Assembly: GCF_002926165.1 (NCBI RefSeq)
Contig: NZ_MAGP01000001.1
Coordinates: 310,001-374,000 of the forward strand
DNA: 64,000 bases
Direction: 5' to 3'
From: Micromonospora chalcea
Lineage (GTDB): Bacteria; Actinomycetota; Actinomycetes; Mycobacteriales; Micromonosporaceae
Shown: piece by piece, positions 1 to 48,660 of the stretch
How positions within the stretch are numbered: position 1 is the stretch's first letter
How the letters are laid out: each line of letters opens with the position of its first letter
Notes under the pieces: model-generated
Told to the model about the DNA's origin: nothing
Databases searched by the model: none
The model's input: only the letters and a program-made list of their open reading frames with translations
Made by a program: the position numbers and the translations under genes

Positions 1-1292
1 GGCGTCTCCGCCAGGACGTCGTACAGTGCGCGATCGGTCGCGTCGGCCTCCGCGGCGGCCCGGGTCAGCACCTCCTTGATCCGGTCCCGGCCGACGACGG
101 GGGTGAGCCGGGCGGCGACCCGTTCGGAGGTGAGCTGGCCCCGGGTCAGCGCCAGGTTGGCCGCCATCCGCTCCGGGCGCACCACGAGCCCCCGCGTCAG
201 CGTCACGGCCGCCTCCGCGGCGGCCCCGGTGAGCCGCAGGCACTCGCGCAGCAGCAGCCACTCGGCGTGCCACACGCCGGCGGACCGCTCGTCCTCGCTG
301 AGCAGCGCCTGGGTGAGCCCGGCCGCCAGCGGCGGCACCTGGAGCGCGGCGCTGCGGATCAGCGTGGCGAAGACCGGGTTCCGCTTGTGCGGCATCGCGG
401 AGGAGGCGCCGCGCCCGCTGGCCGCCGGCTCGGCCACCTCGCTCACCTCGCTGCGCGCCAGCGAGAGCACGTCGACGGCGATCTTGCCGAGCGCGCCCGT
501 CACGAACGCGAGCACCGCGGCGAGGTCGGCCAGCGGCGTACGCAGGGTGTGCCAGGGCAACGCAGGCCGGCTCAGGCCGGTCTCCTCGGCGAACGCCGCC
601 ACGAGGCGGTCCACGTAGCCGGGGTCCGGCTCGGCCGCGCCGTCCAGCGCCGCGTACTCCAGATAGCCGGCCAGCGTGCCGGCCGCGCCGCCGAGCGACA
701 CCGGCAGGCCCTGGTCGCGTACCCGGCACAGCCGCACCCGGGCGTCGCACAGCAACTGGTGCCAGCCGGCCGCCTTCAGCCCGAACGTGGTGGGGGCGGC
801 GTGCAGGGCCAGCGTCCGCCCGGCCATCGGCAGGTCGCGGTGGGTCAGCGCCAGCCCGGCGAGCGCGTCGACGGCGGCGGCGAGGTGGTCGTCGATGACG
901 GTGAGCGCCCGGTGCGCGACTGTCATCGCCGCGGTGTCCAGGATGTCCTGGCTGGTGGAGCCACGGTGGACGTACTCGGCGGAGGCCGGGTCCAGCTCGG
1001 CGACCGCGCGGGTCAGCTGGGCCACAAGCGCCACCACCGGGTTCGCGGTGTCCCGGGACGCCACCGCGACGCCCCGCAGGTCGAACAGCTCGGCCCGGGC
1101 GGTCCGGGTGATCACCGCGGCGGCCTGGACGGGCAGCGTGCCCAGCCGCGCCTGGGCCCGGGCGAGCGCCGCCTCGGCGTCCAGCATGGCCTGCAGCCAG
1201 GCCCGGTCGCCGACCACCGGCTCGATGCTCGTGCCGGCGCGCACCGGTGAGAGCAGGCCGCTGTCCACCGCCACTTCGAGGGTGTCGATCAC
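1..1292 (-). CDS. Nitrosuccinate-lyase-like enzyme (CreD/FzmL type), 3' end beyond window
   Basis: Member of the fumarase/aspartase superfamily, the branch with 3-carboxy-cis,cis-muconate cycloisomerase and adenylosuccinate lyase. About 430 residues are visible. The family signature loop is clear near residue 295 (GASSAMPHKRNP, plus-strand bases about 376-415), and the earlier conserved stretch HRGSTSQDILDTA is present. The GTG start at 1292 overlaps the stop of the upstream FAD gene (GTGA), so the two are translationally coupled. Known pairs of this kind (CreE-CreD, FzmM-FzmL) turn aspartate into nitrosuccinate and then release nitrous acid and fumarate. The pairing is why I prefer this over a catabolic muconate cycloisomerase; no other beta-ketoadipate genes are nearby. 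Superfamily is certain, substrate is inferred. Confidence 0.8.
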   Translation of the reverse strand, partial: MIDTLEVAVDSGLLSPVRAGTSIEPVVGDRAWLQAMLDAEAALARAQARLGTLPVQAAAVITRTARAELFDLRGVAVASRDTANPVVALVAQLTRAVAELDPASAEYVHRGSTSQDILDTAAMTVAHRALTVIDDHLAAAVDALAGLALTHRDLPMAGRTLALHAAPTTFGLKAAGWHQLLCDARVRLCRVRDQGLPVSLGGAAGTLAGYLEYAALDGAAEPDPGYVDRLVAAFAEETGLSRPALPWHTLRTPLADLAAVLAFVTGALGKIAVDVLSLARSEVSEVAEPAASGRGASSAMPHKRNPVFATLIRSAALQVPPLAAGLTQALLSEDERSAGVWHAEWLLLRECLRLTGAAAEAAVTLTRGLVVRPERMAANLALTRGQLTSERVAARLTPVVGRDRIKEVLTRAAAEADATDRALYDVLAET

Positions 1293-3262
1293 ACGATCAC
1301 CCCCGGGAAACGGGCCGCCCCGGTGGCCGCGCGGTCGGCCACCGCATGTCCGGCCGGCGCGAGCGAGCGCACCTCGGCGGCGATCGCGTCGGCGTCGGCC
1401 AGGATCACCGAGTCGCTGCCCGGCCGGATGCCGGCCGCCGTCACCCAGTGCACCGACTCGGTGGGCACACCGAACGCGAACCGGCGCGGGTGCGGCTGAT
1501 CCTGGGCGTCGACGACCCGGTAGGGACGTTCGGTCACGGCGAGTCCTCCTGTCTCGTACGTGCCGCCGTCGTAGGGGATCCGGTACGGCCGGCACTGTTC
1601 GGTGTCGAGCATGTGGCGCAGCAACGGGTCGGCGGTGCCGCGCAGGTCGGGTTCCGGCAGCCGCGCCTCGATGAGGACGCCGGCGCGGACCGGGGGACCG
1701 GGCACCGTCCGGGACGTCGCTTCGAACGCGGGTGTCTCGGTGTCGATGACGATCTGGGTGTCCGGCCCGGTCAGTTCCAGCACACCGGCCTCGATCAGCG
1801 CGATCGTCTCCTCGATGCGCCGGGCCGGCGGGCCGATCGAGAGGAACGCGTTGAACGGGGTGAACCAGCCGGTCAGCTCGTCGCGGTACGAGTCGCCGTC
1901 GATCCCGCTGTGATCGACCGCCAGGCGGACCTCGTTGCGCAGGTCACGCAGGACGTCCAGCGCTGCCTTGAGCGGCCCGTCGACGTTGCCGGCCCGCGCG
2001 TGCGCCACGTCCCGGGCCAGGTGCTCAAGCGCCCAGGCGCGGAAGTCGTCCCGGTCGCGGAACTCGCGCCCGCGGTACGGGTGGGCCAGCCGGTCCCAGT
2101 CCCAGCGCCGCTGCGGCGGTATCGGGTACTCGTCGAGCAGCGCCGGCCGCCGCTCGGCGGGTGTCGCGAGGTAGCGCAGCGTGAAGCTCTCGGCCCGGCC
2201 GGCGTGCCCGGTGCGGCGCAGCAGCGTCGCGTAGTAGACGCTCTCCACCTCGGCGGCGATCAGCGGCCACACGTCGCGACGGAACCGGATCGACTCGCCG
2301 CGGGCGCGGCGGGCGCGCAGCCGCGCCACGGCCTGCGCGGTCAGCAGCCGGGGCAGGTGCCGGCCGGTCACGCCCTTCTGGTTGTCGCCCCGGGCGTGCG
2401 CCGGGATGCCCCGGCGGGAACTGGCGGACAACCTCGGTTCGGCGCCGCTGGGCCGGTACCGCAGCCGTCCGCCCTCCTCGGTGAAGCTGCCGCCCCGGCC
2501 GACGGTCAGCAGGATCAGGTGGTCGAAGAACGTCAGGCCCAGCCCGCGCAGCAGCACCGGGGCGCCCGCCGGGAGGTGGCTGAGGTCGACGTCGGCGGGG
2601 TTGGCCTGGGGGAGATAGGTGAGTCCGTGGACCCGGGACAGGCTCGCCGTGCGTGCCTGCCGGGGATCCAGCCGGGCGGCGGCGTGGCCCAGGGCCAGCA
2701 CCACGGCGTCCAGGTGGTGCAGCCGGGTGCCGTCGGCCAGCCGGACGCCCTGCGGACCGCCCGGCACGCCCGACGTGTCGGCGCTGGCCACCGCGCGGGA
2801 GCGGTGGCACCGGATCGAGACGTGCGGCGGCGCGCGGCGCACGATCCGGCGGAAGCTGGCCCGCAGGTAGTGGCCGTAGAACGCCCGGGTCGGATAGTCG
2901 TCGGGGCCGAGGGCGCGCGCCTCGTCGAGCACGTCGGGGTCGAGCGCGCCCCGCGGTCCTGCCGACGCCACGCTCCGGGCCCACTCGTACAGGCTCGGCC
3001 CGGGCTCGATCGGCCCGGCCAGGCGGCAGCTCGGATCGGTGTAGACGGTGATCTGTGAGGCGACGGTGTTCGTCAGCAGCAGCCGGGACTGGTCGGTGCG
3101 CCACACCGCGCCGGCGCCGGGCGCGGCGGGGTCCACCACGTGCACGGTGAGGCTGGCGCAGGCCCGGTCGTGCCGTTCCTGGGCGCAGAGCCGCTCCAGG
3201 ACGGACAGTCCGCGCGGGCCCGCGCCGACGATGCAGATCCGCAGGTGGCGCGGGCCTGTCAT
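1289..3262 (-). CDS. CreE-like flavin monooxygenase (FAD/NAD(P)-binding protein)
   Basis: 657-residue FAD/NAD(P)-binding protein. The N-terminal dinucleotide fold has GAGPRG at residues 13-18, and the length suits the CreE/FzmM family, which oxidises the amino group of L-aspartate to nitrosuccinate. The ATG at 3262 was chosen because it begins the Rossmann motif and overlaps the TGA of the upstream hydroxylase (ATGA); a longer open frame upstream is only read-through inside that gene. It is followed by the lyase with a GTGA overlap. Related proteins include lysine and ornithine N-hydroxylases, so N-oxidation of an amino acid is likely even if the substrate is not aspartate. Context with a CreD-like lyase makes aspartate the best guess. 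Confidence 0.8.
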   Translation of the reverse strand: MTGPRHLRICIVGAGPRGLSVLERLCAQERHDRACASLTVHVVDPAAPGAGAVWRTDQSRLLLTNTVASQITVYTDPSCRLAGPIEPGPSLYEWARSVASAGPRGALDPDVLDEARALGPDDYPTRAFYGHYLRASFRRIVRRAPPHVSIRCHRSRAVASADTSGVPGGPQGVRLADGTRLHHLDAVVLALGHAAARLDPRQARTASLSRVHGLTYLPQANPADVDLSHLPAGAPVLLRGLGLTFFDHLILLTVGRGGSFTEEGGRLRYRPSGAEPRLSASSRRGIPAHARGDNQKGVTGRHLPRLLTAQAVARLRARRARGESIRFRRDVWPLIAAEVESVYYATLLRRTGHAGRAESFTLRYLATPAERRPALLDEYPIPPQRRWDWDRLAHPYRGREFRDRDDFRAWALEHLARDVAHARAGNVDGPLKAALDVLRDLRNEVRLAVDHSGIDGDSYRDELTGWFTPFNAFLSIGPPARRIEETIALIEAGVLELTGPDTQIVIDTETPAFEATSRTVPGPPVRAGVLIEARLPEPDLRGTADPLLRHMLDTEQCRPYRIPYDGGTYETGGLAVTERPYRVVDAQDQPHPRRFAFGVPTESVHWVTAAGIRPGSDSVILADADAIAAEVRSLAPAGHAVADRAATGAARFPGVIV

Positions 3263-4467
3263 CGCACGGCCTCGCTCGGGCGCTCGCCGCGCACCCGGGC
3301 GGCGTGCATCCAGGCCACCGCCGTGTGCAGCTCCTGTGGCGTCATCGCGGTGAGCGCCCGGTTGCGGGCCGTCGCCGCGTCCCCGGCGGCGTGCCAGAGC
3401 CGGATGCTGTCGCGGGAGACGGCCTGCACCGCGGCGGTCCGCTCCCGCCGTTGCGCGACGTAGCGGCGGAGCACCTCGGGCACCGGCTCGGCGCCGTCGC
3501 CGAGCAGGTCGCCGAGCACCACCGCGTCCTCCAGCGCCTGGCAGGCCCCCTGCGCGGCGTAGTGCAGCATGGGGTGCGCGGCGTCGCCGAGCAGGGCGAC
3601 CCGGCCGTCGGCCCAGTCGTCGACGGGCGGCCGGTCGACGAGCACCCAGGCCCGCCACTCGTCGCTGAGGCGCAGCAGGTCACCGACCGCGCCGAGGCGC
3701 GACATCGCGGCCCGGACCAGTGTGCCGTCGGTGGGCCGGCCGGCGAACAGGGTGGGCGCGCCGTCGGCGTGACTGGCGGCCATGTTCAGGTACGCCCCGC
3801 CGCTGATCGGGTAGTGCACGAAGTGGCAGTCCGGTCCGGCCCACCAGGTGACCGCGTCCCGGCGTACCCGGGCCGGCACCTGGGACATGGGGACTATGGC
3901 GCGGTACGCGGTGATGCCGGAGTTGCGCGGCTCGCCGTCGCCGACGAGCTGGCGGCGGATGCGGGAGTGGATGCCGTCGGCGCCGATCACCATGTCGGCG
4001 GGGATCCGTTCGCCGGAGTCCAGGCGCACGGCGGCCTCGGCCGCGTTCTGGTCGTAGCCGGCCACCGAGGCGGCCGGGCGCAGCGTGATCCGGGGCAGCC
4101 GCCGGGCCGCGTCGAGCAGGCGGCGGTGCAACTCGGCGCGGTGCACCACCACGTACGGGCTGCCGAACCGGCGCTGGTAGCGCTCGGTCAACGGCATGCT
4201 GGTGACGTGGGCGCCGGTCACGCCGTCCATGAACCGCAGTTCCGCCATGGCGACCGCGGTGGCCCGCACCTGCGGTCCCACACCGAGCGCGTCCAGCGCG
4301 TGCAGGCCGTTGGGGGCGAGCTGGATGCCCGCGCCCAGCTCGGTGAACTCGGGCTGGCGTTCCAGGACCGTCACGTGATGTCCGTGCGCCGCGACCGCCA
4401 GCGCCGTGGCGAGCCCGCCGATGCCGCCCCCGGCCACGACCACGCGCACGGGCGTCCGGGTGCTCAT
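3259..4467 (-). CDS. Group A FAD-dependent aromatic hydroxylase (salicylate hydroxylase-like)
   Basis: 402-residue single-component flavoprotein monooxygenase. Visible motifs are the FAD GxGxxG fold (GGGIGGLATA, about residues 12-21), the DG motif (GADGIHSR) and the second FAD motif ([14 protein letters not shown]). Such enzymes use NAD(P)H and oxygen to hydroxylate, sometimes with decarboxylation, an activated aromatic acid such as an aminohydroxybenzoate. Start ATG at 4467 overlaps the ligase stop, and its own stop overlaps the next start, so it sits in a tight four-gene run (ligase, hydroxylase, CreE-like, CreD-like). It may play the part that CreL plays in cremeomycin biosynthesis, hydroxylating 3-amino-4-hydroxybenzoate; this is inference from context. 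Confidence 0.88.
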   Translation of the reverse strand: MSTRTPVRVVVAGGGIGGLATALAVAAHGHHVTVLERQPEFTELGAGIQLAPNGLHALDALGVGPQVRATAVAMAELRFMDGVTGAHVTSMPLTERYQRRFGSPYVVVHRAELHRRLLDAARRLPRITLRPAASVAGYDQNAAEAAVRLDSGERIPADMVIGADGIHSRIRRQLVGDGEPRNSGITAYRAIVPMSQVPARVRRDAVTWWAGPDCHFVHYPISGGAYLNMAASHADGAPTLFAGRPTDGTLVRAAMSRLGAVGDLLRLSDEWRAWVLVDRPPVDDWADGRVALLGDAAHPMLHYAAQGACQALEDAVVLGDLLGDGAEPVPEVLRRYVAQRRERTAAVQAVSRDSIRLWHAAGDAATARNRALTAMTPQELHTAVAWMHAARVRGERPSEAVR

Positions 4468-6035
4468 CCGGCCGCGCTGTCCCGGTCGAGCAGCTGCCGG
4501 GCCAGCTCCAACCGTTTGATCTTGGTGGTGGCGGTCTGCGGGAGATCCGCCAGGCGCCGCTGCACCGGACGGGCCATCGGCGGCAGCGTGGCGACCGCGC
4601 CGGCCCAGCGGTCGATGTCGATCGGCAGGTCCTCGCTGGTGCAGATCACCGGCACGGGCGGCCCGTCCGGCGCCGGCAGGATGATCACCTCGACGAGCTC
4701 GTCCAGCCGGGTGAAGAGCGTGTCCTCGACCGCCAGCGTGCTGCCGAACCCGTCGATCTCGTCGACCTCGCGGTCGAGCAGGTGCAGGCAGCCCAGCCGG
4801 GTGCGGTAGCCCAGGTCGCCCATCCGCCACCACGATCCGTGGCGCTGACCCTCGTACCGCTGCTGCTCGCCGAGGTAGGTGACGATGCGCCCGTCGGTGC
4901 GTACCTCGATGTAGCCGGGGTTGTCGCGGGTGGGCGGGCGTCCGTTGCGGCTGACCACCCGGATGTCGGTCATGCCGGGGAACGGCATGCCGACGCAGCG
5001 CCCGTCGGCGTCCTCGGGCCGGCGGCGGGTGAACGCGCGGGCCGCGACCGGGCCGACCTCGCTCTGCCCGTACAGCTGGCCGAACACCGGCTTGGGATGC
5101 GCGGAGGCCCCGAGCATGCGCCGGACCGTACGCGGGTGGATGGCGTCGAAGGTGCTGCTGAAGTAGCGCACGGTGGCCAGCGGCGCGCGCGGGTCGTCGG
5201 CCAGCCGCTCCCACCGCAGGAACGAGTTGGGGTGGGTCTCCAGCACGCCCGGACGATGGGTCAGGAACAGGTCGGTGGCCTGGTCCGGGTCGTTGTCGGC
5301 GTGCACCAGCAGCGGGAAGCCGCGCAGCATCGTGATCGCCAGCGCGGTGAACAGGCGCGAGTGCACGAACGAGACGTGGATGGCGACCGGGCAGCGGCGC
5401 CGCACCAGCGCGGCGACCGACGCCTGCGGGCGGTAGCGCGCCTGCAGCGTCCGTCCGGTGTGCACGGCCAGCTTCGGCAGCCCGGTGGTGCCGGAGGTGT
5501 GGGTGACCAGGGTGGGATGGTCGGGGGACATGACGATCGGCGGGACGCTCGGCACACCGGTCAGGGCGCGCAGCGACGTGGCCGACGGATGGTCACCGGA
5601 GGCGAGCAGCACCCCGGCGACCGCCGGGAACACGGTGTCCGCCAGTTCCCCGTCGAGGGTGGCGCGGTCGGTCAGCAGGTACGGCCGGCCGGCCCGGCGG
5701 ATCAGATGCAGCACCGTGGTGGCGTCGAGGTGGGGGGAGAGCAACACCGGCACGGCCCCGATCCGGGCCAGCGCGCACGCGCTCAGCGTGATGTCGAAGT
5801 TGTGCGACTTGTGGACCACCACGCGGTCGCCCGGTCGTACGCCGGCGGCGTGCAGGCGGGCGGCCAGGTCGGCGACCAGGCCGGCGACCGCGCCGACGGT
5901 GAGCCGCCGGCCGAGTTCCGGCGCCACGTCGAGGTCGTGGTCGAGGGTGATGCTGTTGTCCGGGTGCCGGGCCGCGGCCCGGTCGAAGAGTGTGCCCAGT
6001 CGGATGCCGCGATTGGCGATCGTCTGCAGCAACAT
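4464..6035 (-). CDS. AMP-forming acyl-CoA synthetase/ligase (possible diazotising ligase)
   Basis: 523-residue ANL-superfamily adenylating enzyme. The phosphate-binding loop reads THTSGTTGLPK near residue 180, YGQSE follows near residue 320, and the C-terminal lysine region is TTKIKRLE. It should activate a carboxylate, or less commonly an inorganic oxyacid, as an adenylate. In cremeomycin the ANL-family protein CreM diazotises an arylamine with nitrite. A ligase directly ahead of CreE/CreD-like genes could do the same, or could activate an aromatic acid for the N-acetyltransferases upstream. Overlaps the hydroxylase by ATGA and lies nine bases after the SRPBCC gene. Confidence 0.88.
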   Translation of the reverse strand: MLLQTIANRGIRLGTLFDRAAARHPDNSITLDHDLDVAPELGRRLTVGAVAGLVADLAARLHAAGVRPGDRVVVHKSHNFDITLSACALARIGAVPVLLSPHLDATTVLHLIRRAGRPYLLTDRATLDGELADTVFPAVAGVLLASGDHPSATSLRALTGVPSVPPIVMSPDHPTLVTHTSGTTGLPKLAVHTGRTLQARYRPQASVAALVRRRCPVAIHVSFVHSRLFTALAITMLRGFPLLVHADNDPDQATDLFLTHRPGVLETHPNSFLRWERLADDPRAPLATVRYFSSTFDAIHPRTVRRMLGASAHPKPVFGQLYGQSEVGPVAARAFTRRRPEDADGRCVGMPFPGMTDIRVVSRNGRPPTRDNPGYIEVRTDGRIVTYLGEQQRYEGQRHGSWWRMGDLGYRTRLGCLHLLDREVDEIDGFGSTLAVEDTLFTRLDELVEVIILPAPDGPPVPVICTSEDLPIDIDRWAGAVATLPPMARPVQRRLADLPQTATTKIKRLELARQLLDRDSAAG

Positions 6036-6044
6036 GTCCGGCTC

Positions 6045-6587
6045 CTACCGTTCGGTCTCGATGATCGACTTGAGTCGGCGCAGCGTCTCGTGCAGATCGG
6101 CGCCGACCTTGGCGCCCCATTCGGTGACGAAACGCCGGCGCTCGTCGTCGTCCATGTCTCGGGTGATCTTGCGGATGCCCTCGGTGGGCTCGTCCATCCG
6201 GAAGTGGTGCGTCAGGCGGCAGCCGGCGCCCTCGGGGCTCATCCGGAAGGCCCACACGCTGCTCTGGGCGCGCCCCCGGCTGTCCCGCATCGCCCAGCTG
6301 AACTCGACGCCGGGGATCGCGGTGTGCACCTGCGACTCCGTGGTCCAGACGCCGCGGACGACCGGCGCCCAGGCGACGACGTCCTCGCCGCGGACGTTGT
6401 GGCCGCGGAACACCGCCCCGGCGGCGCCGGGACGGCCGCTGATCCACTCGCCTCCGGTGCACTCGGTGCTCCACTCCCGGCACCGGGGAAGGTCACTGAC
6501 GAGCGCGTAGACCTCGTCCGGAGTGGCGTCGACGACGATTTCCGCCTGCGATTCGAACAGTGGCGTGGTGGTATCGGTTTCGGCCAT
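6045..6587 (-). CDS. SRPBCC (START/polyketide cyclase-like) protein
   Basis: 180 residues. The pattern beginning EIVVDATPDEVYALVSDL near residue 16 and the later segment GCRLTHHFRM are typical of the helix-grip fold shared by START, Bet v1 and polyketide cyclase/dehydrase proteins. These bind hydrophobic ligands in a cavity, and some act as aromatases or cyclases. There is no transmembrane segment or signal peptide. It is the first gene of the leftward operon leading into the ligase and the CreE/CreD-like pair, so a role in binding or cyclising the pathway intermediate is possible but not shown. Confidence 0.8.
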   Translation of the reverse strand: MAETDTTTPLFESQAEIVVDATPDEVYALVSDLPRCREWSTECTGGEWISGRPGAAGAVFRGHNVRGEDVVAWAPVVRGVWTTESQVHTAIPGVEFSWAMRDSRGRAQSSVWAFRMSPEGAGCRLTHHFRMDEPTEGIRKITRDMDDDERRRFVTEWGAKVGADLHETLRRLKSIIETER

Positions 6588-6723: not shown

Positions 6724-8373
6724 ATGGGGGGGAGCACGGAACAAGGCGCCGCCGTGCCCGGCTCCGCCGACGACGCCGGGGTGCCGCACGACGAAGGCGG
6801 TCTGCTGCGGGACATCGCCCGGCAGGGCCGGCGGCTGCTCGACGCGCCGGCCGCCTTCGTCGCCGTCGTGTCCGAGGACGGACCGACGATCACGGTACGG
6901 GCGGCGGACGGCCCCCACGAGGACGGCCGGCTGGACCTGCCCGGTCACCATCCCTCCGGCGCGGCGCTGCTGGACGGATCGCCGCTGTGGTGCGGTGACG
7001 CGGAATCCGCCCCGGCGACGTCCGGGCCGCACGAGGACGGCGCACTGCACGCGGTGGTCGCGGTACGTCTGGGCCACCTGCGCGGATACGCCCCCCGCCG
7101 GTCCGTCGCCGCGCTGTACCTCGCCGACCGGCGCCCCCGGACGGTCACCGAGGGGGAGCGCGTCCAGTTGACCTCGTTCGCCCGGCTCGCGGGCGCGGCG
7201 ATGGAGAAGACGCAACTGCTGGACGTCGCGATCGCCCGGCTCTACGGGCTGGAGCAGCAGTCCGCCCGTACCGCCGCCGACCTGGACCGGATGCGGGCGC
7301 TGCGCTCCGCGCACTACGGCTTCATCGACCTGGCCGTGGCCCGCGGCGACGCGCGCGCCTTCGTGGTGGAGGCCGACCGGCGTCTCGGCGCGTCGGTGCG
7401 GCTGTGCACCGACGACGGTCTGGTGGTCGCCGCGAGCCGGTCCGCCGCCGCCGGACCGGAGCCGGGCGTGCCGGACGGCCGCCGCATGGTCGTCCCGGTG
7501 CTGGCCGGCGACCGGCGGATGGGAGACCTGCTGCTGGAGATGGACAGCCCGCTCGCCGACCCGGACGGGCAGCTCCTGCTCCTGATCGCCCAGGCGGCGG
7601 CGGTGATCCTGCGCCAGCTCGACGACAGCCGGGAGAGCCAGGCCCGTCGTGCCCTGCTCAACGAGCTGATCACCACGCCGCAGCCCACCGGCACGCTTGT
7701 CGAACGGGCCCGGCGGCTGGGCGTGCGCCTGGACCGGCCGTACGTCGTGGTGGTGTTGCGCCCGGACGGCGTCAGCCCGCACTGGGCGTCGATGTGGAGC
7801 GCGGCGTTCGCCGCCCGGGGTGACGGTCTGTCCGCGCTGCACGACGACGACATCGTGCTGCTGCTGCCGGGGGAGGCCGACCCGGCCGAGATCGCCCGGA
7901 CGGCCGCGGAGGAGTCGGGCGCGCTCTTCGGCCGCCCGGTGACGGCCGCGGCGTCCGACAGCGGTTCCGGGCCGGAGCGGGTGGCGGTGCGCTACCGGCA
8001 GGCGCTGCGCTGCCTCGACGTCATGATCTCAATGGAGCTGGCCGGTCGCGGCGTGTCGGTACGGGAGCTGGGTTTCCTGCCGATGCTGCTGGCCGGCCGG
8101 GAGGGCATCGACCAGTTCATCGACGCCACCCTCCAGCCGGTGCTCGACTACGACAGGCACCGCGACGGCGACCTCGCCCGCACGCTCGACGCGTACTTCG
8201 AGGCCGGCCGCAGCCCGACCAACGCGGCCGAGCTGCTGCACATGCACCCGAACACGGTCACCCGGCGGCTGGACCGGGTGAAGCGCCTGCTCGGCCCGAC
8301 CTGGCAACTCCCGGCACGGGCGCTGGAGATCCAGCTCGCGCTACGCCTGCACCGCCTGCTCACCGAGCTGTGA
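6724..8373 (+). CDS. PucR/CdaR-family transcriptional regulator with GAF-like sensor
   Basis: 549 residues. The N-terminal 160 residues look like a GAF domain (sensor for a small molecule). A middle region has a second weak sensor-like segment, and the C-terminus (about 490-545) is the PucR-type helix-turn-helix, with AAELLHMHPNTVTRRLDRVK as recognition helix. Start ATG at 6724 follows a GGAAG ribosome site. It is the only rightward gene within a block of leftward biosynthetic genes, lies divergent from the SRPBCC operon and converges with a 33-base overlap on the oxidoreductase gene, so it probably controls this sub-cluster. Confidence 0.85.
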   Translation: MGGSTEQGAAVPGSADDAGVPHDEGGLLRDIARQGRRLLDAPAAFVAVVSEDGPTITVRAADGPHEDGRLDLPGHHPSGAALLDGSPLWCGDAESAPATSGPHEDGALHAVVAVRLGHLRGYAPRRSVAALYLADRRPRTVTEGERVQLTSFARLAGAAMEKTQLLDVAIARLYGLEQQSARTAADLDRMRALRSAHYGFIDLAVARGDARAFVVEADRRLGASVRLCTDDGLVVAASRSAAAGPEPGVPDGRRMVVPVLAGDRRMGDLLLEMDSPLADPDGQLLLLIAQAAAVILRQLDDSRESQARRALLNELITTPQPTGTLVERARRLGVRLDRPYVVVVLRPDGVSPHWASMWSAAFAARGDGLSALHDDDIVLLLPGEADPAEIARTAAEESGALFGRPVTAAASDSGSGPERVAVRYRQALRCLDVMISMELAGRGVSVRELGFLPMLLAGREGIDQFIDATLQPVLDYDRHRDGDLARTLDAYFEAGRSPTNAAELLHMHPNTVTRRLDRVKRLLGPTWQLPARALEIQLALRLHRLLTEL

Positions 8374-9363
8374 CGCCGCGCCGTCCGGGACGACCAGGGC
8401 CCGCCGCCCGCGCATCTCGCCGTCCTCCACCATCCGGTGCGCCTCCCGCATCGCGGACAGCGGAAGCCGCACCACCTCGCGCGGGCGCAGCCGGCCGGCC
8501 GCGAGCAGCCGGTTGATGAAACCGGCCGCCTCCGCCAGTTCCGCGGTCGTGGCGAGCGAGATGACGAAACCGACTATCGACCTGTCGTTCGTGTACAGCT
8601 CACCGGCGGGCAGCGCCGGACGGGTCCGCGCGCCCGCGAGCAGCACGATCCGCCCCCGTACGGCGAGTTGCCCGACCGCCAGGTCCAGGTCGTTGGTGCC
8701 GGAGGTGTCCAGGTAGACGTGGACGCCCTCCGGGCAGGACGCGGCGAGCCGGTCACCGAGATCCGGTGCGGCGTAGTCGACCACCTCGACCGCGCCGGCG
8801 GCCCGGCAGAACGCCTCGTCCCGGGGCGCCGCGGTGGCGACCACGCGCGCGCCCAGCGCCGTCGCCGTCGTGATCAACGCGGAGCCGACGTTGCCGCCGC
8901 CACCGCCCACCACCACCGTCTCACCGGGGCGCATGCGGCCGTGCACCGCCAGCGCCAGGTAGGCGGTGGCGGCCGGGTGCAGCACGGTGACGGCCTCCAC
9001 CGAGGCCGCCGCCGGTAGCGGGTACAGCCGGTCCGCGGGCACCACCACCTGTTCGGCGGCCGCGCCCTGACGCCCGCCGTGGCCCAGGCTGTTGCACCAG
9101 ACCCGGTCGCCGGGGCGGAAGCCGGCCACGCCGTCACCGGCGTGCGCGACCACGCCCACCACGTCCCGGCCCACCACGAACGGCAGTGGGACCGGCGTAC
9201 GGTACGTGCCGGCCCGCACGAACGTGTCGACGTGGTTGACGGTGGTGGCGAGCGTGTCGACCAGCACGTCGGTGGGGCCCGGCCGGGGCGCGGGCAACTC
9301 GCCGTACCGGATCTCGGTGGCCGGCCCCAGCCGGTCGACGTAGGCGGCCCGCACTGTCGTCAT
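8341..9363 (-). CDS. Zinc-type alcohol dehydrogenase/quinone oxidoreductase
   Basis: 340-residue medium-chain dehydrogenase/reductase. It has an N-terminal GroES-like part and a Rossmann segment GGGGGNVGSALI near residue 150, and the NADPH-quinone oxidoreductase pattern continues through GRIVLLAGA. The structural-zinc cysteine cluster is absent, so it fits the quinone reductase branch. ATG at 9363 overlaps the stop of the N-acetyltransferase gene. It could reduce a quinone or enone intermediate of the left-hand cluster. Its 3' end overlaps the convergent PucR gene by 33 bases. Confidence 0.88.
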   Translation of the reverse strand: MTTVRAAYVDRLGPATEIRYGELPAPRPGPTDVLVDTLATTVNHVDTFVRAGTYRTPVPLPFVVGRDVVGVVAHAGDGVAGFRPGDRVWCNSLGHGGRQGAAAEQVVVPADRLYPLPAAASVEAVTVLHPAATAYLALAVHGRMRPGETVVVGGGGGNVGSALITTATALGARVVATAAPRDEAFCRAAGAVEVVDYAAPDLGDRLAASCPEGVHVYLDTSGTNDLDLAVGQLAVRGRIVLLAGARTRPALPAGELYTNDRSIVGFVISLATTAELAEAAGFINRLLAAGRLRPREVVRLPLSAMREAHRMVEDGEMRGRRALVVPDGAASQLGEQAVQA

Positions 9364-10199
9364 CGGCGGGCCGGCCCGCCGTCGTCGTTCTGGAAGAACG
9401 CCATGCGCGACGACTGGTCCGCGTACGGGCTCGGCGTCGGCGGCTTGTCCAGGACGATCCCGAACCACCGCCGGTACGCCTCCAGCAGCGCGTCGCCGTC
9501 GGTGAGCGTCTCGACGCTCCGGCGGTCGCCGGCGATGACCGTCAGCACGTCGCCCTGCAGGGTGACCCGGCCGTCGGCGGTGGGCAGCGTGCAGAACATG
9601 TTCCGCAGGAACGGCGAGTCCGGGCAGGTGCGGTACCACCACAGGTTCTGCCGGAAGTCGGCCAGGTCGGCCGGCTCGTCGTAGAACCGGTACTGCAGCG
9701 CGTCGTTGCGGTACACGTCGACGACCCCCGGCTCGACCCGCCGGGTGGCGAACCGGCCGTGCGGGTCCACGTACGGTTCGGCCGCGTCGAGCCGGAACGG
9801 AAACCGGCTGTTCTTGCCGAAGCCGACGTCGACCAGCCAGCGGGAGCCGGTCTCGGGCAGGTCCACGGTCAGCATCAGATGATTGTGCGGGCCGTTGAAC
9901 CGCCCGGAGAGCCAAACCCGCCCCTGATGCAGCGTCACCGCGAAACCCAGCGCCCGCAACAGGAAGAACAGCGAGGTGTTGATCTCGAAGCAGCCGCCGC
10001 CGCGGCGCTGGCGGATCACCTTGTCCAGCACCCGCTCGTCCATGTAGATCTCGTGGCCCAGGTGGTAGTCCAGGTTCTCGAACGGCACCGTGAACGTGTG
10101 GCGTTCCTGCAGGTCGCGCAGCGCCGCCAGGTCCGGCCGCTCGGGGCGGGCGGCGCCGATCCGGTCCAGGTAGCCGCGCACCTGCTCGTCGGTCAGCAC
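9360..10199 (-). CDS. Arylamine N-acetyltransferase family protein (copy 1)
   Basis: 279 residues, normal length for the family. The catalytic triad is intact: Cys70 in RGGGCFEIN, His107 in NHLML and Asp124 in LVDVGFG. Such enzymes acetylate aromatic amines from acetyl-CoA; biosynthetic relatives (RifF type) form macrolactams, and a Streptomyces griseus homologue acetylates 2-aminophenols including 3-amino-4-hydroxybenzoate. It lies three bases after a close paralogue and overlaps the dehydrogenase start. Its acceptor could be an aminophenol or aminohydroxybenzoate of this locus. Confidence 0.92.
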   Translation of the reverse strand: MLTDEQVRGYLDRIGAARPERPDLAALRDLQERHTFTVPFENLDYHLGHEIYMDERVLDKVIRQRRGGGCFEINTSLFFLLRALGFAVTLHQGRVWLSGRFNGPHNHLMLTVDLPETGSRWLVDVGFGKNSRFPFRLDAAEPYVDPHGRFATRRVEPGVVDVYRNDALQYRFYDEPADLADFRQNLWWYRTCPDSPFLRNMFCTLPTADGRVTLQGDVLTVIAGDRRSVETLTDGDALLEAYRRWFGIVLDKPPTPSPYADQSSRMAFFQNDDGGPARR

Positions 10200-10202
10200 G
10201 GC

Positions 10203-11012
10203 TCAGTCCCGCTCGTACGACATGCGCATCGACTTCTTGACGTGCGGACTCGGCTTCGGCGGCGCGTCCAGCTTGATGCCGAAGTACTTGTCGTACGCCG
10301 CCAGCAGGTCGTCGTCGTTGGTGATCCGTTCGATGCGCCGCTCGTCGCCGTCGATCACGACGAGTTTGTTCTCCCGCAGGATGATGCGCCCGTTCTCGGT
10401 CGGCAGCGTGCAGGAGAGGTTCTGCAGGAAAGGCGAGTCCGGTGAGGTGCGGTACCACCACAGCACCTGCATGCCGTCGGCGGCCACGACCGGCTCGTCG
10501 TAGAAGCGGTACTGCAGCGCGTCGGCCCGGAAGACGTCGGTGGCGTTGTCGGCGACCCGCTTGGTGGAGAAGGTGCCGTGCGGGTCCTCCTGCGGCTGCG
10601 GCGACTCCAGCAGCAGCGGGTAGCGGCTGCTGCGACCCAGGCCGACGTCGCTCAGCCACCGCTGCTCGCCGATGCGCACCGTGGTCACCGAGTGGTTGTA
10701 CGGCGGCGTGAACTCGTGACCGAGCCAGACCCGGCCCTGGTGCAGCGTGACGTCGAAGCCCAGCGCCTCCAGCAGGTAGTGGAACGCGTTGTTGATCTCA
10801 CCGCAGCCGCCGCCGCGGTTCTGGTACACGATCTTCTCGACCACCCGCTCGTCGATGAAGATCTCCTTGCCGAGGTGGTAGTCGATGGTCTCGAACGGCA
10901 CCGTCAGCTCGTGCTGCGCGTGCAGCAGCCGCAGCGCCTCGGCGTCGAGCCGCTCCGGCCGGGCCACACCGATGCGGTTCAGGTACGCGTCGACAAGCGT
11001 GTCGTCGAGCAT
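10203..11012 (-). CDS. Arylamine N-acetyltransferase family protein (copy 2)
   Basis: 269 residues, paralogous to the gene just downstream: similar layout, the same opening pattern (IGxARPER) and the same ends around LDKPP/LDAPP. Triad Cys70 (NRGGGCGEIN), His107 (YNHSVT), Asp122 (LSDVGLG) is intact. Start ATG at 11012 is preceded by AGGAGAG, which lies across the end of the amidohydrolase gene. Two intact copies suggest two different acyl transfers or a heteromeric amide synthase rather than a simple duplication, since they have diverged around the active site. Confidence 0.92.
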   Translation of the reverse strand: MLDDTLVDAYLNRIGVARPERLDAEALRLLHAQHELTVPFETIDYHLGKEIFIDERVVEKIVYQNRGGGCGEINNAFHYLLEALGFDVTLHQGRVWLGHEFTPPYNHSVTTVRIGEQRWLSDVGLGRSSRYPLLLESPQPQEDPHGTFSTKRVADNATDVFRADALQYRFYDEPVVAADGMQVLWWYRTSPDSPFLQNLSCTLPTENGRIILRENKLVVIDGDERRIERITNDDDLLAAYDKYFGIKLDAPPKPSPHVKKSMRMSYERD

Positions 11013-11016
11013 GTGG

Positions 11017-12012
11017 TCACTCTCCTGTCGAGGGGAAGCGGGCGAACAGCTTCGCCGCGTTGGACCGGTTGACCGCGGCCCACCACCCCGGATCGAGGTC
11101 CGCGTGGCGCGCCACTCCCGCACCGATCGAGGCGCCGAAGGACTCCGGCATGAACGGGTAGTCGGAGCCGACCAGGACCCGTTCCGGATCGGCGAACAGC
11201 CGCAGCGAGGCGAGCGCGTGCCGGCCGCACATCGCCACGTCGAAGTAGAGGCGGCGGAGCAGGGCGAGGGGATCGTCCGGCAGGCGGTCGGCGAGGTCGC
11301 GGTTGATGACCGGGCCGTAGGTGAGCCGGTCGGCGTAGTAGGTGACCCCGCCGCCGCCGTGCGGCAGGATGATCCGCAGCTCGGGGAACCGCTCCAGCGT
11401 GCCGTTGTAGAGCAGCTGCGCCACCAGCCGCACCGTCTCGAACGGGAACTCGTACAGCGACAGCGGCAGCCCGAAGGCGGGCTGGCCGGTGGCCGGCGGC
11501 ACCGCCGGGTGCACGAAGATCGGCGTGCGCCGCCGCTCGGCCTCGGCCAGCAGCGGATCGAGCCGGCGGTCACCGACGTAGAGCCCGTCGTAGTTGGTGA
11601 GCAGCCCGAGCCCGTCCAGGCCGAGCACGTCGACCGCGTGGACGAACTCCGTCACGCAGTCGTCGAGGTGGGGGAAGGGCAGCACCGCGAACGCGCCGAA
11701 GCGGCAGTCGCCGGCCGCCACGAACTCGGCCAGGTACTCGTTCAGCCGCCGCGCGAGAGCGCGGCTGCGGGCGCGGTCCAGCGACGGTACGCCCGGCCAG
11801 AGGCTGACCAGCGCGGCGCGTATGCCCTGCCGGTCCATCATGGCGATGCTGCCCGACCGGCTCCAGGTGGGGCGGTCGACTCCGGAAAGAACAGTGGAAC
11901 CACCCAATTCGCGAAGCTCGGCCGCATAGAAATCGGGAATTATGTGATGGTGCACGTCGATGGCGTCCATCCACGGTGACCCGGCCGGACCGTTTACGGG
12001 TTTGGCGTCCAC
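11017..12012 (-). CDS. Metal-dependent amidohydrolase (ACMSD/hydroxybenzoate decarboxylase family)
   Basis: 331 residues in the amidohydrolase_2 family, which includes non-oxidative aromatic decarboxylases. Metal ligands are visible: the HxH motif in DVHHHIIP (His21/His23), a later histidine in FVHPAVPP, a histidine in LPHGGGG and the aspartate of GSDYPF. The N-terminus could begin at Met1 or at the second methionine (residue 15), just before the HxH motif. It is the first gene of the leftward run ending in the N-acetyltransferases and oxidoreductase. A decarboxylation or ring-hydrolysis step on an aminohydroxybenzoate is plausible. Confidence 0.85.
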   Translation of the reverse strand: MDAKPVNGPAGSPWMDAIDVHHHIIPDFYAAELRELGGSTVLSGVDRPTWSRSGSIAMMDRQGIRAALVSLWPGVPSLDRARSRALARRLNEYLAEFVAAGDCRFGAFAVLPFPHLDDCVTEFVHAVDVLGLDGLGLLTNYDGLYVGDRRLDPLLAEAERRRTPIFVHPAVPPATGQPAFGLPLSLYEFPFETVRLVAQLLYNGTLERFPELRIILPHGGGGVTYYADRLTYGPVINRDLADRLPDDPLALLRRLYFDVAMCGRHALASLRLFADPERVLVGSDYPFMPESFGASIGAGVARHADLDPGWWAAVNRSNAAKLFARFPSTGE

Positions 12013-12223: not shown

Positions 12224-13228
12224 ATGCTCACATATTCGCGTGGCGACCGGCCGATCGGTGTGCTCGGCACCGGCTCCTACCTGCCCGGCCGGGTGGTGAC
12301 TAACGACGAGGCGGCCGAGCACGCCGGCGTGACCGGCGACTGGGTGTTCGAGAAGACGGCGATCCGGCAGCGGCGGTGGGCCAAGCCGGACGAGGCGACC
12401 TCCGACCTGGCGATCGGCGCGGCGCGCATCGCGCTCGCGGACGCCGGCGTCGACCCGGCCGACCTGGCGCTCGTCGTGGTGGCCACATCGACGCCGGATT
12501 CGCCGCAACCACCCACGGCCAGCGTCGTCGCCCACGAGATCGGCGCCGGACGGGGTACCGCCGCGTTCGACGTCAACGCGGTGTGCAGCGGCTTCAGCTA
12601 CGGGCTCGCGGTCGCCGAGCGGCTGGTGACCGCAGCGGGGGACCGGCCGGCGCTGGTGATCGGCGCGGACGTCTACTCGCGCATCCTGTCGCCGCAGGAC
12701 CGCCGGACAGTGGTGCTGTTCGGCGACGGCGCGGGCGCCGCGGTGATCGGGGTCGGTGGCGCGCACCGGGTCGTGGCCACCCGGCTGCTCAGCTTCGCCG
12801 AGGCGCGCGGGCTGATCGGAGTGGCGGCCGGTGGCAGCCGCCTGCCGGCCTCGGAGCAGACGCTCCGGGACGGCTCGCACCACTTCCGGATGGACGGCCG
12901 GGGAGTACGCGAGTTCATCGACACGTACGTGGTCGCCGGCATCGCGGAGTTCCTGGCCGAGCACGGTGTGCCGCCGCACCGGCTCGGGCATCTGGTGCCG
13001 CACCAGGCCAACGGCCGGATCCTCGCCTCGATGGCGGAGCGGCTCGGGCTGCCCTTCGACCGTGTCGCCAGCACGTACACCGCCTACGGCAACACCGGCG
13101 CCGCCGCGGTGCCCATCACCTACGACCAGCTGTGCCGCTCCGGCCGGGTCCGCGTCGGCGACCTCGTGCTGCTCACCGCATTCGGCGGCGGGATGTCCAT
13201 GGGGATGACCCTGCTCCAGGCCGGCTGA
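12224..13228 (+). CDS. 3-oxoacyl-ACP synthase III (KAS III) family protein
   Basis: 334 residues from ATG 12224. The frame stays open upstream to 12113, but the first 37 residues are basic and outside the family, and the chosen start gives the usual length. Catalytic Cys121 (AVCSGFS), His260 (VPHQANG) and Asn290 (YGNTGAA) are all present, so it should be an active thiolase-fold enzyme. No acyl carrier protein or other polyketide gene is near. Stand-alone KAS III proteins in clusters often act as acyltransferases or load unusual starters. It is divergent from the amidohydrolase operon. Confidence 0.85.
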   Translation: MLTYSRGDRPIGVLGTGSYLPGRVVTNDEAAEHAGVTGDWVFEKTAIRQRRWAKPDEATSDLAIGAARIALADAGVDPADLALVVVATSTPDSPQPPTASVVAHEIGAGRGTAAFDVNAVCSGFSYGLAVAERLVTAAGDRPALVIGADVYSRILSPQDRRTVVLFGDGAGAAVIGVGGAHRVVATRLLSFAEARGLIGVAAGGSRLPASEQTLRDGSHHFRMDGRGVREFIDTYVVAGIAEFLAEHGVPPHRLGHLVPHQANGRILASMAERLGLPFDRVASTYTAYGNTGAAAVPITYDQLCRSGRVRVGDLVLLTAFGGGMSMGMTLLQAG

Positions 13229-17390: not shown

Positions 17391-18395
17391 TCAGCCCGTC
17401 AAGCGGGCGACGATGTCGGCGGCCGGGCCCGGCGCGGCGGACGCGAAACCGGTCCCGGCCCACAGGTTCAGCGCCTCGGCGTCACCGAGACGTGCCGCCG
17501 CGGCCCGGATCGGCGCGGTCAGGTGGTGCACCGCCGGATAGGCGACCGGCGCCGCCGCGGAGTAGGCGTCGGTGAAGCGGTTGGCCAGGGCCCGCGCCGG
17601 ATGACCGGTGAACGCCCGGGTGACCACGGTCCGGCGGAAGTCGCCGGAGAGCATCGCGGCGCGCTGCGCCGGCCGTGTACCGGCCTCGTCGGCGAGCAGG
17701 AACGCGGTGCCGCTCTGCACCGCCGCCGCGCCGGCCGCGCGCAGCCCCGCGACATCCTCGGCGGCCGAGGTTCCGCCGGCCACGACGACCGGCAGGTCCG
17801 TGACCGACCGTACGGCGGCGAGCAGGTCCCGCGCCTTGCCGCGCGGCCGGTAGCCGGACGGATCGGTGGTCGAGGCGTGCCCGCCCGCCGTGCCCGCCTG
17901 CGCGACGAGCGCGTCCGGTCCGGCGGCGACCGCCCGGCGGGCCTCGTCGGCCGAGGTGACGGTGATCAGCACGTGGCATCCGGCGCCGCGCAGCGCCCGC
18001 ACCACGCCCGCCGGCGGTACGCCGAACGCGAAGCTCACGAGCGGGACCGCGTACGCCACCGCCAGGTCCACCTTCGCGGCGAAGTGGTCGTCGTCGTGCC
18101 GGCGCGGCGCCGGCAGGTCCACCCCGTACCGCTGTGCCTCCGGCAGCAACAACCGGCGGTACGCCTCCACCCGCGCCGGGTCCGGCTCCGCCGGGGTCGG
18201 CACGAAGATGTTGAGCCCGTACGGCACGCCGGCCGCGCGCGTCGCGCGTACCTGGTCCTCGACGGCCTCGGGGGTCTGGTAGCCGGCGGCGAGGAAGCCG
18301 ACCGAGCCGGCCCGGGCGGCGGCGGTGACCAGCGCCGGGTTCGACGGACCTCCGGCCATCGGGGCGACCACGAGGGGAGGGAGCAGCTCGGTCAT
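17391..18395 (-). CDS. Nitronate monooxygenase (2-nitropropane dioxygenase family)
   Basis: 334-residue FMN-dependent TIM-barrel enzyme. Recognisable parts are the N-terminal VVAPMAGG, the flavin-binding AQAGTAGGH (about 165-175), PVVVAGGTSAAEDV and the C-terminal stretch RFTDAY. The family oxidises alkyl nitronates to carbonyls plus nitrite, and protects cells against toxic nitro compounds such as propionate-3-nitronate. A detoxifying role beside a putative nitrosuccinate pathway is attractive, though these enzymes are common in actinomycetes and it lies several genes away. Confidence 0.88.
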   Translation of the reverse strand: MTELLPPLVVAPMAGGPSNPALVTAAARAGSVGFLAAGYQTPEAVEDQVRATRAAGVPYGLNIFVPTPAEPDPARVEAYRRLLLPEAQRYGVDLPAPRRHDDDHFAAKVDLAVAYAVPLVSFAFGVPPAGVVRALRGAGCHVLITVTSADEARRAVAAGPDALVAQAGTAGGHASTTDPSGYRPRGKARDLLAAVRSVTDLPVVVAGGTSAAEDVAGLRAAGAAAVQSGTAFLLADEAGTRPAQRAAMLSGDFRRTVVTRAFTGHPARALANRFTDAYSAAAPVAYPAVHHLTAPIRAAAARLGDAEALNLWAGTGFASAAPGPAADIVARLTG

Positions 18396-43290: not shown

Positions 43291-44574
43291 GTGAAGACGA
43301 CTGTGGACGTGCTGGTCCAGAAATACGGGGGCACCTCGTTGCAGACCCTCGACCGCGTACGGCACGCCGCGCTGCGGATCGCCGCGGCGCGGCGGGACGG
43401 GTCCGCCGTGACAGTTGTCGTGTCGGCCCGCGGCAGCCGCACCGACGACCTGCTGCGGCTCGCGGCCGACGTCGGCGCCGCCGGCCCGTCCCGGGAACTC
43501 GACCAGTTGCTCGCAGTCGGCGAGTCCGAGTCGGCGGCGCTGATGGCGCTGGCGTTGACCGGGCTCGGCGTGCCGGCCGTCTCACTGACCGGGCACCAGG
43601 CGGAGATCCACACCACCGACCGGCACGGCGACGCGCTGATCTCGCGGATCGGGGCGGCGCGGGTCGAGGCGGGGCTGGACCGCGGCGAGGTCGCCGTGGT
43701 CACCGGGTTCCAGGGGATCGACCGGGCCGGGGACGTCGCCACGCTCGGACGCGGCGGCTCCGACACGACAGCCGTGGCGCTCGCGGCCCGGCTGCGCGCG
43801 TCGGCGTGCGAGATCTACACCGACGTGGACGGCGTGTTCAGCGCCGACCCCCGCATCCTTCCGGCGGCGCGTTGCCTGCCGTGGGTCGAGCCCGGCGTCA
43901 TGGCGGAGATGGCGTTCGCCGGCGCGCGGGTCCTGCACACCCGATGCATCGAGCTGGCCGCCATGGAAGGGGTCGAAGTGCGCGTGCGCAACGCGTCGTC
44001 GCAGGCGCCCGGAACGACAGTCGTGGACCGGCCGGACGACCGGCCGCTGGAGACCCGGCGGGCCGTGGTGGCGGTGACCCACGACACCGACGTGGTGCGC
44101 GTGCTGGTGCACTGCCGCGACGGCCGGCGGGACATGGCGCCCGACGTGTTCGAGGTGCTGGCCGCCCACGGCGCGGTGGCGGACCTGGTGGCCCGGTCCG
44201 GGCCGTACGAGAGCGAGTTCCGGATGGGGTTCACCATCCGCCGCAGCCAGGCCGACGCGGTGCGGACCGCGCTGCACGACCTCACCGCGTCCTTCGACGG
44301 CGGCGTCCACTTCGACGAGAACGTCGGCAAGGTGTCGGTGGTCGGCATGGGCCTGCTCAGCCGCCCCGAGCACACGGCCCGGCTGATGGCGGCGCTGGCC
44401 GAGGCCGGGATCTCGACGAGCTGGATCTCCACCTCCCAGATGCGGCTGTCGGTGATCGTGTCGCGGGACCGCACCGTGGACGCCGTCGAAGCCCTGCACC
44501 GCGCGTTCCGCCTCGACCGGTCCGAGCCGGCGGACGCCACGTCCCTGACCTCCCGTCGTTCCGCCACCGCCTGA
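43291..44574 (+). CDS. Aspartokinase
   Basis: 427 residues. The kinase part begins with VQKYGGTSLQ and has TLGRGGSDTTAVALAA near 157 and YTDVDGVFSADPR near 180. Two C-terminal ACT-type segments follow. It supplies aspartyl phosphate, hence aspartate semialdehyde, for the 3-amino-4-hydroxybenzoate route; a cluster copy may escape feedback inhibition. No semialdehyde dehydrogenase is adjacent, so the housekeeping one must serve. GTG 43291 after GAGGGCG is the chosen start. Confidence 0.93.
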   Translation: MKTTVDVLVQKYGGTSLQTLDRVRHAALRIAAARRDGSAVTVVVSARGSRTDDLLRLAADVGAAGPSRELDQLLAVGESESAALMALALTGLGVPAVSLTGHQAEIHTTDRHGDALISRIGAARVEAGLDRGEVAVVTGFQGIDRAGDVATLGRGGSDTTAVALAARLRASACEIYTDVDGVFSADPRILPAARCLPWVEPGVMAEMAFAGARVLHTRCIELAAMEGVEVRVRNASSQAPGTTVVDRPDDRPLETRRAVVAVTHDTDVVRVLVHCRDGRRDMAPDVFEVLAAHGAVADLVARSGPYESEFRMGFTIRRSQADAVRTALHDLTASFDGGVHFDENVGKVSVVGMGLLSRPEHTARLMAALAEAGISTSWISTSQMRLSVIVSRDRTVDAVEALHRAFRLDRSEPADATSLTSRRSATA

Positions 44575-44589
44575 GAGAGGTAGGAAACC

Positions 44590-45414: not shown

Positions 45415-45445
45415 GACTCCCTGACCGTCCACCGAGGAGAAACCC

Positions 45446-46549: not shown

Positions 46550-46575
46550 GCGGCGGCGGGAAGGGGAGCGGGGCG

Positions 46576-48650: not shown

Positions 48651-48660
48651 GGGAACCGAC

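Follow-up and report, generated by a model that had tools for sequence, protein, structure and literature searches.

Introduction

In cremeomycin biosynthesis, the creD, creE and creM products make nitrite from aspartate and use it through an ANL-type diazotase, with 3-amino-4-hydroxybenzoate (3,4-AHBA) as the starting compound (PMC11429834). Nitrite-dependent aromatic diazotisation also occurs in the avenalumic and p-coumaric acid pathways (AvaA6 and CmaA6), whereas fosfazinomycin biosynthesis uses a pair of the CreD/CreE type, FzmL/FzmM (PMC11705231), for a hydrazine. The penzonemycin (pzm) cluster, for which an origin of the core from 3-hydroxyanthranilate (3-HAA) has been proposed (PMC9323291), encodes CreD, CreE, quinone-reductase-like, CreM-like ligase and SRPBCC homologues (Pzm11/12/13/18/19). 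Here we describe an operon of this kind at the left edge of a 64,000-nt stretch (the window; negative positions lie to its left) of Micromonospora chalcea contig NZ_MAGP01000001.1 (genome G000), which, judged from sequence, very probably makes nitrite from aspartate and spends it on the diazotisation of an aromatic amine. The operon alone adds a member to the known systems; what is new is the proposed hydroxylase-bearing cassette with exchangeable nitrite sources, to which comparison with related loci led.

The window set shares all five of the above homologues with pzm. In Streptomyces halstedii locus L157, the called gene lengths of 527, 622, 406, 161, 334 and 659 residues correspond to pzm18, 16, 15, 14, 13 and 12 (PMC9323291, Table 3), and the Pzm18 equivalent was assigned there by gene length and place. 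Identity to the L157 equivalents is 66.7% over 519 aa for the ligase, 65% for CreE, 69% over the 255 aa aligned for CreD (part of the L157 locus), 61% for the quinone-oxidoreductase-like protein of the medium-chain dehydrogenase/reductase (MDR) type, and 54% over 121 aa for the SRPBCC protein. In contrast to the window set, the pzm cluster includes 3-HAA genes of its own as well as two ligases and an acetolactate synthase; no aromatic hydroxylase of the window type is listed in Table 3 of PMC9323291. The window set has this hydroxylase, two arylamine acyltransferases, an amidohydrolase and a beta-ketoacyl synthase III (KAS III), with no 3-HAA genes alongside.

Gene organization of the operon

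The five genes form a single minus-strand operon at positions 1-6587. They are listed below in order of transcription, as called by a codon-usage script in place of a standard gene finder.

6045-6587, minus strand: SRPBCC protein (180 aa), Pzm19-like, helix-grip fold
4464-6035, minus strand: ANL ligase (523 aa), predicted ATP-dependent diazotase of the Pzm18 type, from its kinship to the Pzm18 equivalent
3259-4467, minus strand: FAD aromatic hydroxylase (402 aa), nearest to 3-hydroxybenzoate 6-hydroxylase (NF006021)
1289-3262, minus strand: putative CreE-like L-aspartate N-hydroxylase (657 aa), matching 8cp2/8cp5
-126 to 1292 (1 to 1292 within the window), minus strand: putative CreD-like nitrosuccinate lyase (472 aa), with its C-terminus beyond the window and complete in L002:17874-19292

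The last four genes are linked by start/stop overlaps (GTGA for creD, ATGA for creE and the hydroxylase), each start sharing four bases with the end of the preceding gene. An earlier sequence-only reading had described a lyase translationally coupled to a 657-residue FAD protein, preceded by an ANL ligase and an aromatic hydroxylase; the GTGA overlap and the positions of the two upstream genes bear this out, and all five genes are confirmed to be present. The same five-gene order is found in G176, G282 (same genus) and G103 (same family). It is also kept in 17 of the 80 nearest relatives, G103 included. These 80 are the best of 383 relatives obtained by scanning species genomes with an alignment of clade A ligases (the branch of the window ligase), and are thus the nearest loci and no random sample; five of them are Micromonosporaceae loci already in the family set.

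The CreE/CreD pair

The full-length lyase scores 715.7 bits against the nitrosuccinate lyase model NF052556 (cut-off 650; 676.9 bits for the window-truncated form), the sole cut-off that it passes among the seven NCBI families matched at E<=1e-20. Against the solved CreD structure 5xny it scores 559.6 bits, versus 269.2 bits for the best muconate cycloisomerase; the latter assignment was rejected, since TIGR02426 gives 350.8 bits, below its cut-off of 355.75, and 5xny scores far higher. The 657-residue FAD protein matches nothing in the PDB at E<=0.001 except 8cp2/8cp5 (642.8 bits), an L-aspartate N-hydroxylase from Streptomyces sp. V2 (PMC10404684), and no NCBIfam model matches at the same threshold. 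All nine core residues checked at the aspartate, sulphate or flavin sites, as named in PMC10404684, are kept: R13, N62, R266, R276, R409, R412, N413, R416 and R577 of the solved enzyme correspond to R17, N65, R291, R301, R439, R442, N443, R446 and R613 in the window protein, according to an alignment inspected by eye with the residue letters then checked. Kinship was judged from these model and structure-sequence scores in place of a CreD/CreE tree. The lyase is hence of the CreD type, well apart from the catabolic cycloisomerases, and the FAD protein of the CreE type rather than one of the unrelated reductases, in agreement with the earlier reading; assignment of the pair to nitrite formation by the aspartate-nitrosuccinate (ANS) pathway appears near certain from these scores.

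The ANL ligase and the predicted reaction sequence

In a quick tree, the window ligase falls on one branch (support 100) with 84 relatives including L157, against four outgroup rows, and Pzm18 is itself a CreM homologue with 48% identity (PMC9323291, Table 3). Kinship to the Pzm18 equivalent, together with the nitrite sources that neighbour the ligase in its relatives, fits a nitrite-using enzyme, and the ligase likely acts as a diazotase. Glu326 in its YGQSE motif is invariant in 10 of 10 sequences and, judged by motif, may correspond to the Mg/ATP glutamate Glu352 of CreM. The AlphaFold model of the ligase is poor (mean predicted local distance difference test score, pLDDT, 66.4) and was left out of the fold search.

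We infer the following sequence of reactions in this strain. The CreE-like protein would oxidise L-aspartate to nitrosuccinate, which the CreD-like lyase would cleave to nitrite and fumarate; the ANL ligase would then activate nitrite with ATP and diazotise an aromatic amine, most likely 3-HAA or a product of it, the diazepinomicin-type genes next to the operon being a possible supplier of 3-HAA. For the hydroxylase, the probable role is hydroxylation para to the ring hydroxyl, and for the SRPBCC protein, binding of an aromatic or diazo intermediate. A diazo compound, a hydrazone or a deaminated phenol are candidate final products. If this is true, a genome with a diazepinomicin-type cluster also carries genes for a reactive diazo or N-N metabolite.

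Several observations weigh against this assignment. The outer aspartate-binding arginines R593 and R597 of the solved CreE-type enzyme are both replaced (A629 and S633; none of the two kept). The link of the ligase to CreM runs through the 48% identity between Pzm18 and CreM (PMC9323291), and, according to a review (PMC11705231), the pzm enzymes still need experimental proof. The ligase scores 85.1 bits on the AvaA6 diazotase model NF058622, for which the cut-off is 975 and on which many other ligases score alike, and membership of the AvaA6-type 3-aminoavenalumate diazotases was accordingly rejected. The top PDB matches, 9bq0/8tf7 (named as Tri17 in PMC11705231), are barely ahead of 9xb8, an entry named FadD (124.3 versus 122.7 bits), so that the PDB sequence comparison is not decisive. 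The hydroxylase gives 395.4 bits on NF006021 (3-hydroxybenzoate 6-monooxygenase), under the cut-off of 459. Three of the ten Micromonosporaceae genomes with a clade A ligase have no creE hit; G252 and G341 carry nitrate-reductase (nas) genes in the locus in place of creE, and G072 has neither within 20 kb. Likewise, 20 of the 80 relatives have neither nitrite source in the stretch examined, 11 of these 20 being on loci shorter than 19 kb. Finally, a second PhzE-like gene of G000 lies on contig C130, so that 3-HAA need not stem from the diazepinomicin genes.

The ligase might instead be an ordinary aryl-coenzyme A or acyl-acyl carrier protein ligase, with nitrite serving another, unseen enzyme or being released. 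Its ANL family membership and its low score on the AvaA6 model agree with such a role, and the arylamine acyltransferase pair and KAS III of the cluster could use acyl thioesters. We nevertheless regard this explanation as improbable, because the clade travels with nitrite genes (creE or creD in 46 of the 80 relatives, a narK-nasC-nasB operon in 32) and the ligase is 67% identical to the Pzm18 equivalent. Furthermore, 10 of 21 loci with distant ligases (35-54% identity; L043-L063) contain genes for a type III polyketide synthase, an aminotransferase or a dzmP-like protein, which makes them candidate napyradiomycin-type clusters, and for napyradiomycin the CreM homologue NapB4 is proposed as the diazotase in PMC11705231. 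Among Micromonosporaceae, the ligase is found at E<=1e-60 in 36 of 354 genomes, 10 of them with clade A members (at least 64% identical), and creE hits (E<=1e-100) occur in 7 of these 10 versus 23 of the 354 overall (Fisher p 2e-7, relatedness not corrected). A predicted diazotase acting on nitrite from the CreE/CreD pair thus remains our preferred assignment.

Of 392 genomes taken as a sample of the genus of G464, 111 have the ligase at E<=1e-95. A CreM orthologue was sought in 20 loci of that genus (41-51% matches), and only L216 had a GriI/GriH and hydroxylase-like match, with no creDE in the 20 kb examined, so that none of these ligases was assigned as CreM. The 21 distant-ligase loci contain no nas genes and creDE in two cases (L048 and L050); within L043-L052, ligases of about 51-54% identity lie near type III polyketide synthase, DegT aminotransferase, O-methyltransferase or dzmP-like prenyltransferase genes. 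G000 itself encodes AvaA6-like ligases elsewhere, at C151:7483-9078 (509.5 bits) and C46:67112-68713 (447.1 bits), both below the cut-off of 975. Near ANL ligases of several branches (L044-L047, L052, L053, L207, L221, L223, L225-L228 and L230), including the AvaA6-like one on C151, lies a gene for a DUF3050-type protein, as judged from the one member scanned.

Nitrate-reductase genes as a possible second nitrite source

The 80 relatives divide into 28 with creE/creD only, 18 with creE/creD and nas, 14 with nas only, and 20 with neither. The nas genes lie mostly behind the ligase, hydroxylase or creD on the same strand (upstream in L171), in the form narK-nasC-nasB(-nasB), as in L116:11698-17846, L135:11563-17591, L159:15098-21539 and others of L095-L174; in L135 only two bases separate the ligase from the start of NarK, and in L116 NarK and NasC overlap. 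The best match of NasC is the assimilatory nitrate reductase model NF047855 (733.6 bits, under the cut-off of 1100), and NarK scores 277.1 bits on the nitrate/nitrite transporter family TIGR00886 (under the cut-off of 311.7). All three NasB-like proteins scanned have a pyridine-nucleotide oxidoreductase domain and two have a BFD domain; none of the three has a sirohaem domain, for which the other flanking genes were not scanned.

A second NasC-like gene is present elsewhere in 11 of 13 nas-only genomes searched (L125 left out), one of the 11 being just 44% identical. In a tree that included 8 of the 14 listed non-cassette copies, the 32 cassette NasC sequences fall on one side of a branch (support 99) and the eight second copies on the other, and cassette NasC is by this tree a separate paralogue with its own branch. 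Mapped on a tree of 85 clade A ligases, the gene distributions need at least 13 changes for creDE (73 rows), 11 for nas (65 rows) and, with all 85 rows counted, 5 for the hydroxylase; these counts omit short loci without creDE or nas, rest on a quick tree with weak deep branches and do not separate gain from loss. With moderate confidence, we propose one diazotisation cassette with interchangeable nitrite sources, in which NarK, the NasC paralogue and one or two NasB proteins would replace or join CreE/CreD behind the diazotase, the window form sharing 3-HAA with the diazepinomicin cluster.

At E<=1e-80, creE is absent from 6 of the 13 nas-only genomes and lies elsewhere in the other seven (in one as fragments). 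Speaking against a role of nitrate, these seven could feed the ligase from there; adjacency is no proof of function. Likewise, creE is present elsewhere in five of eight searched genomes whose locus has neither source. In the open-access literature searched, we found no diazotase fed by a nitrate reductase, while the ANS pathway and CreM-like enzymes did appear. If the proposal is true, N-N chemistry would draw on both aspartate and environmental nitrate, and cluster searches demanding creD plus creE would presumably miss the nitrate-only form, which would change cluster mining. More broadly, a cassette common among actinobacteria emerges from the comparison, with a probable role in 3-HAA-derived diazo chemistry, and a clear testable question follows: does a diazotase draw nitrite from nitrate?

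The amine substrate and the fate of the nitrogen

The genes considered as a nearby source of 3-HAA lie in the diazepinomicin-type cluster of the window:

41091-43076, minus strand: PhzE-like enzyme, nearest candidate source of 3-HAA
49851-51349, plus strand: DhbA-like and isochorismatase (PhzD-like) genes

Each of the eight other Micromonosporaceae genomes that carry a clade A ligase has a PhzE-like gene at a distance of 1.6-25.6 kb from it; the chance that all eight fall within 30 kb under uniform placement is about 1e-14, a rough figure as the genomes are related. For G000 and G176, the closest PhzE gene belongs to the diazepinomicin-type cluster, about 35 kb away, and each genome has another elsewhere. 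Among the 80 relatives, PhzE is found in 22 and DhbA in 21 at more than 38% identity (25 with weaker matches), whereas a match to GriI/GriH, the kind expected for a cremeomycin-like start from 3,4-AHBA, is found in none within the locus stretch examined. From the PhzE linkage in the relatives, 3-HAA or a product of it is the probable amine substrate, and, from the position of the nearest PhzE, sharing of 3-HAA with the diazepinomicin-type genes is plausible.

Diazotisation might serve merely to remove the amine. In this reading, diazotised 3-HAA would be reduced to 3-hydroxybenzoate by the quinone-oxidoreductase-like protein, and the hydroxylase would convert this to gentisate. In favour of it, amine loss through diazotisation is reported for avenalumic and p-coumaric acid (PMC10777205), the hydroxylase, which lies directly behind the ligase in 29 of the 80 relatives, is nearest to a 3-hydroxybenzoate 6-hydroxylase, and the MDR protein is present in 63 of the 80. 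However, the pzm cluster has the same MDR and SRPBCC proteins, yet its proposed product keeps the N-N bond (PMC9323291), and the reductase AvaA7 is likened in PMC10777205 to sugar epimerases, not to MDR proteins. Loss of the nitrogen is for these reasons rather unlikely.

The SRPBCC gene, present in 72 of the 80 relatives and adjoining the ligase in 71, encodes a protein with a confident predicted model (pLDDT 92.7) that has TcmN ARO/CYC among its nearest solved folds, a search that resolves just the broad helix-grip fold.

Further genes of the cluster

To the right of the operon lie the following genes:

6754-8373, plus strand: PucR-type regulator with a GAF domain (Pfam HTH_30, GGDEF_2, GAF_2); 37-46% identical homologue in 13 of 80 relatives
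8341-9363, minus strand: quinone-oxidoreductase-like MDR protein, Pzm13-like (PIG3 family 133.5 bits, under the cut-off of 296.8)
9360-10199, minus strand: arylamine N-acetyltransferase (NAT)-like protein 1 (Pfam PF00797, 174.8 bits)
10203-11012, minus strand: NAT-like protein 2 (Pfam PF00797, 169.6 bits), 57% identical to copy 1
11017-11841, minus strand: amidohydrolase-2 family protein (Pfam PF04909), 96% in G176 and in none of the 80 relatives
12260-13228, plus strand: KAS III (NF006829, 305 bits, over the cut-off of 249)

NAT is found in 8 of the 80 relatives and KAS III in 7, together with NAT; several of these loci adjoin 3-HAA genes (L109, L132, L159 and L172), a recurrence that supports counting the window NATs and KAS III in the cluster. 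The KAS III gene, after which a transposase-like gene comes, is the probable right end of the core cluster. Locus L120 of Nocardia pseudobrasiliensis has the SRPBCC, ligase, hydroxylase and creE genes with no creD match, and also has relatives of the genes that encode TetR, NAD-binding, FMN-reductase and SnoaL-like proteins at 14.5-17.3 kb of the window; the cluster in the window may thus extend to about 17.3 kb.

A nitronate monooxygenase-like protein is encoded at 17391-18395 (Pfam NMO, 253 bits), with a 61% identical relative near the operon in G282; as a safety valve for nitrosuccinate it was rejected, because only G282 shares it and none of the 80 relatives does. Large genes to the left of the window (-37961 to -1668) include, among those scanned, nonribosomal peptide synthetase (NRPS), cyclic-peptide exporter, 2-oxoglutarate oxygenase-like and MMPL exporter genes. 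The NRPS genes (-37961 to -8865) were rejected as a coupling partner of the kind seen in tasikamides, since about 4 kb of G176 past an M23 peptidase gene has no match to the left flank of the window, and they are probably merely neighbours.

Relation to the diazepinomicin-type cluster

The neighbouring cluster has polyprenyl synthetase, mevalonate-pathway, HMG-CoA synthase, ABBA prenyltransferase and sensor kinase genes side by side. This is the flanking order given for the diazepinomicin prenyltransferase gene in PMC3871700, and the cluster is by gene content, without a direct DzmP comparison, of the diazepinomicin type. It also has 3-HAA genes. One alternative is that the operon supplies tailoring enzymes for diazepinomicin itself: in G000, some 15 kb separate it from the left end of the conserved block, and the two are also near each other in G176, a close relative in which cluster and operon are both present with most genes at least 90% alike, and both use, or probably use, 3-HAA. 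Other genomes separate the two, however. G192 and G214 have a block matching window positions 21600-60926 without the operon beside it, and neither gave a CreE hit (E<=1e-100) in the search of 354 Micromonosporaceae genomes; none of the window genes up to 20.6 kb, operon included, adjoins the block in these two genomes, with the sole exception that the operon hydroxylase matches the block's own hydroxylase at 39-40%. Conversely, G282 has the operon and no hit to the dzmP prenyltransferase in the search of the genus (G103 lying outside that search), in which relatives at E<=1e-40 were found in 7 of 160 genomes. In addition, the route proposed for diazepinomicin names no nitrite step where PMC3871700 outlines it. 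A diazepinomicin module is thus very improbable; the operon is, on this comparison of gene content, separate from the neighbouring cluster, in agreement with the sequence-only reading.

Positions 43303-49851, within the diazepinomicin-type cluster, hold aspartate kinase, DhnA-type aldolase and 3,4-AHBA synthase-like genes that are kept in G192 and G214; the last gives 610.8 bits on the BagC/FevH model (cut-off 750). Whereas an origin of ring B from 3-amino-5-hydroxybenzoate was speculated on in work cited by PMC3871700, this gene content suggests that ring B of diazepinomicin may come from 3,4-AHBA instead.

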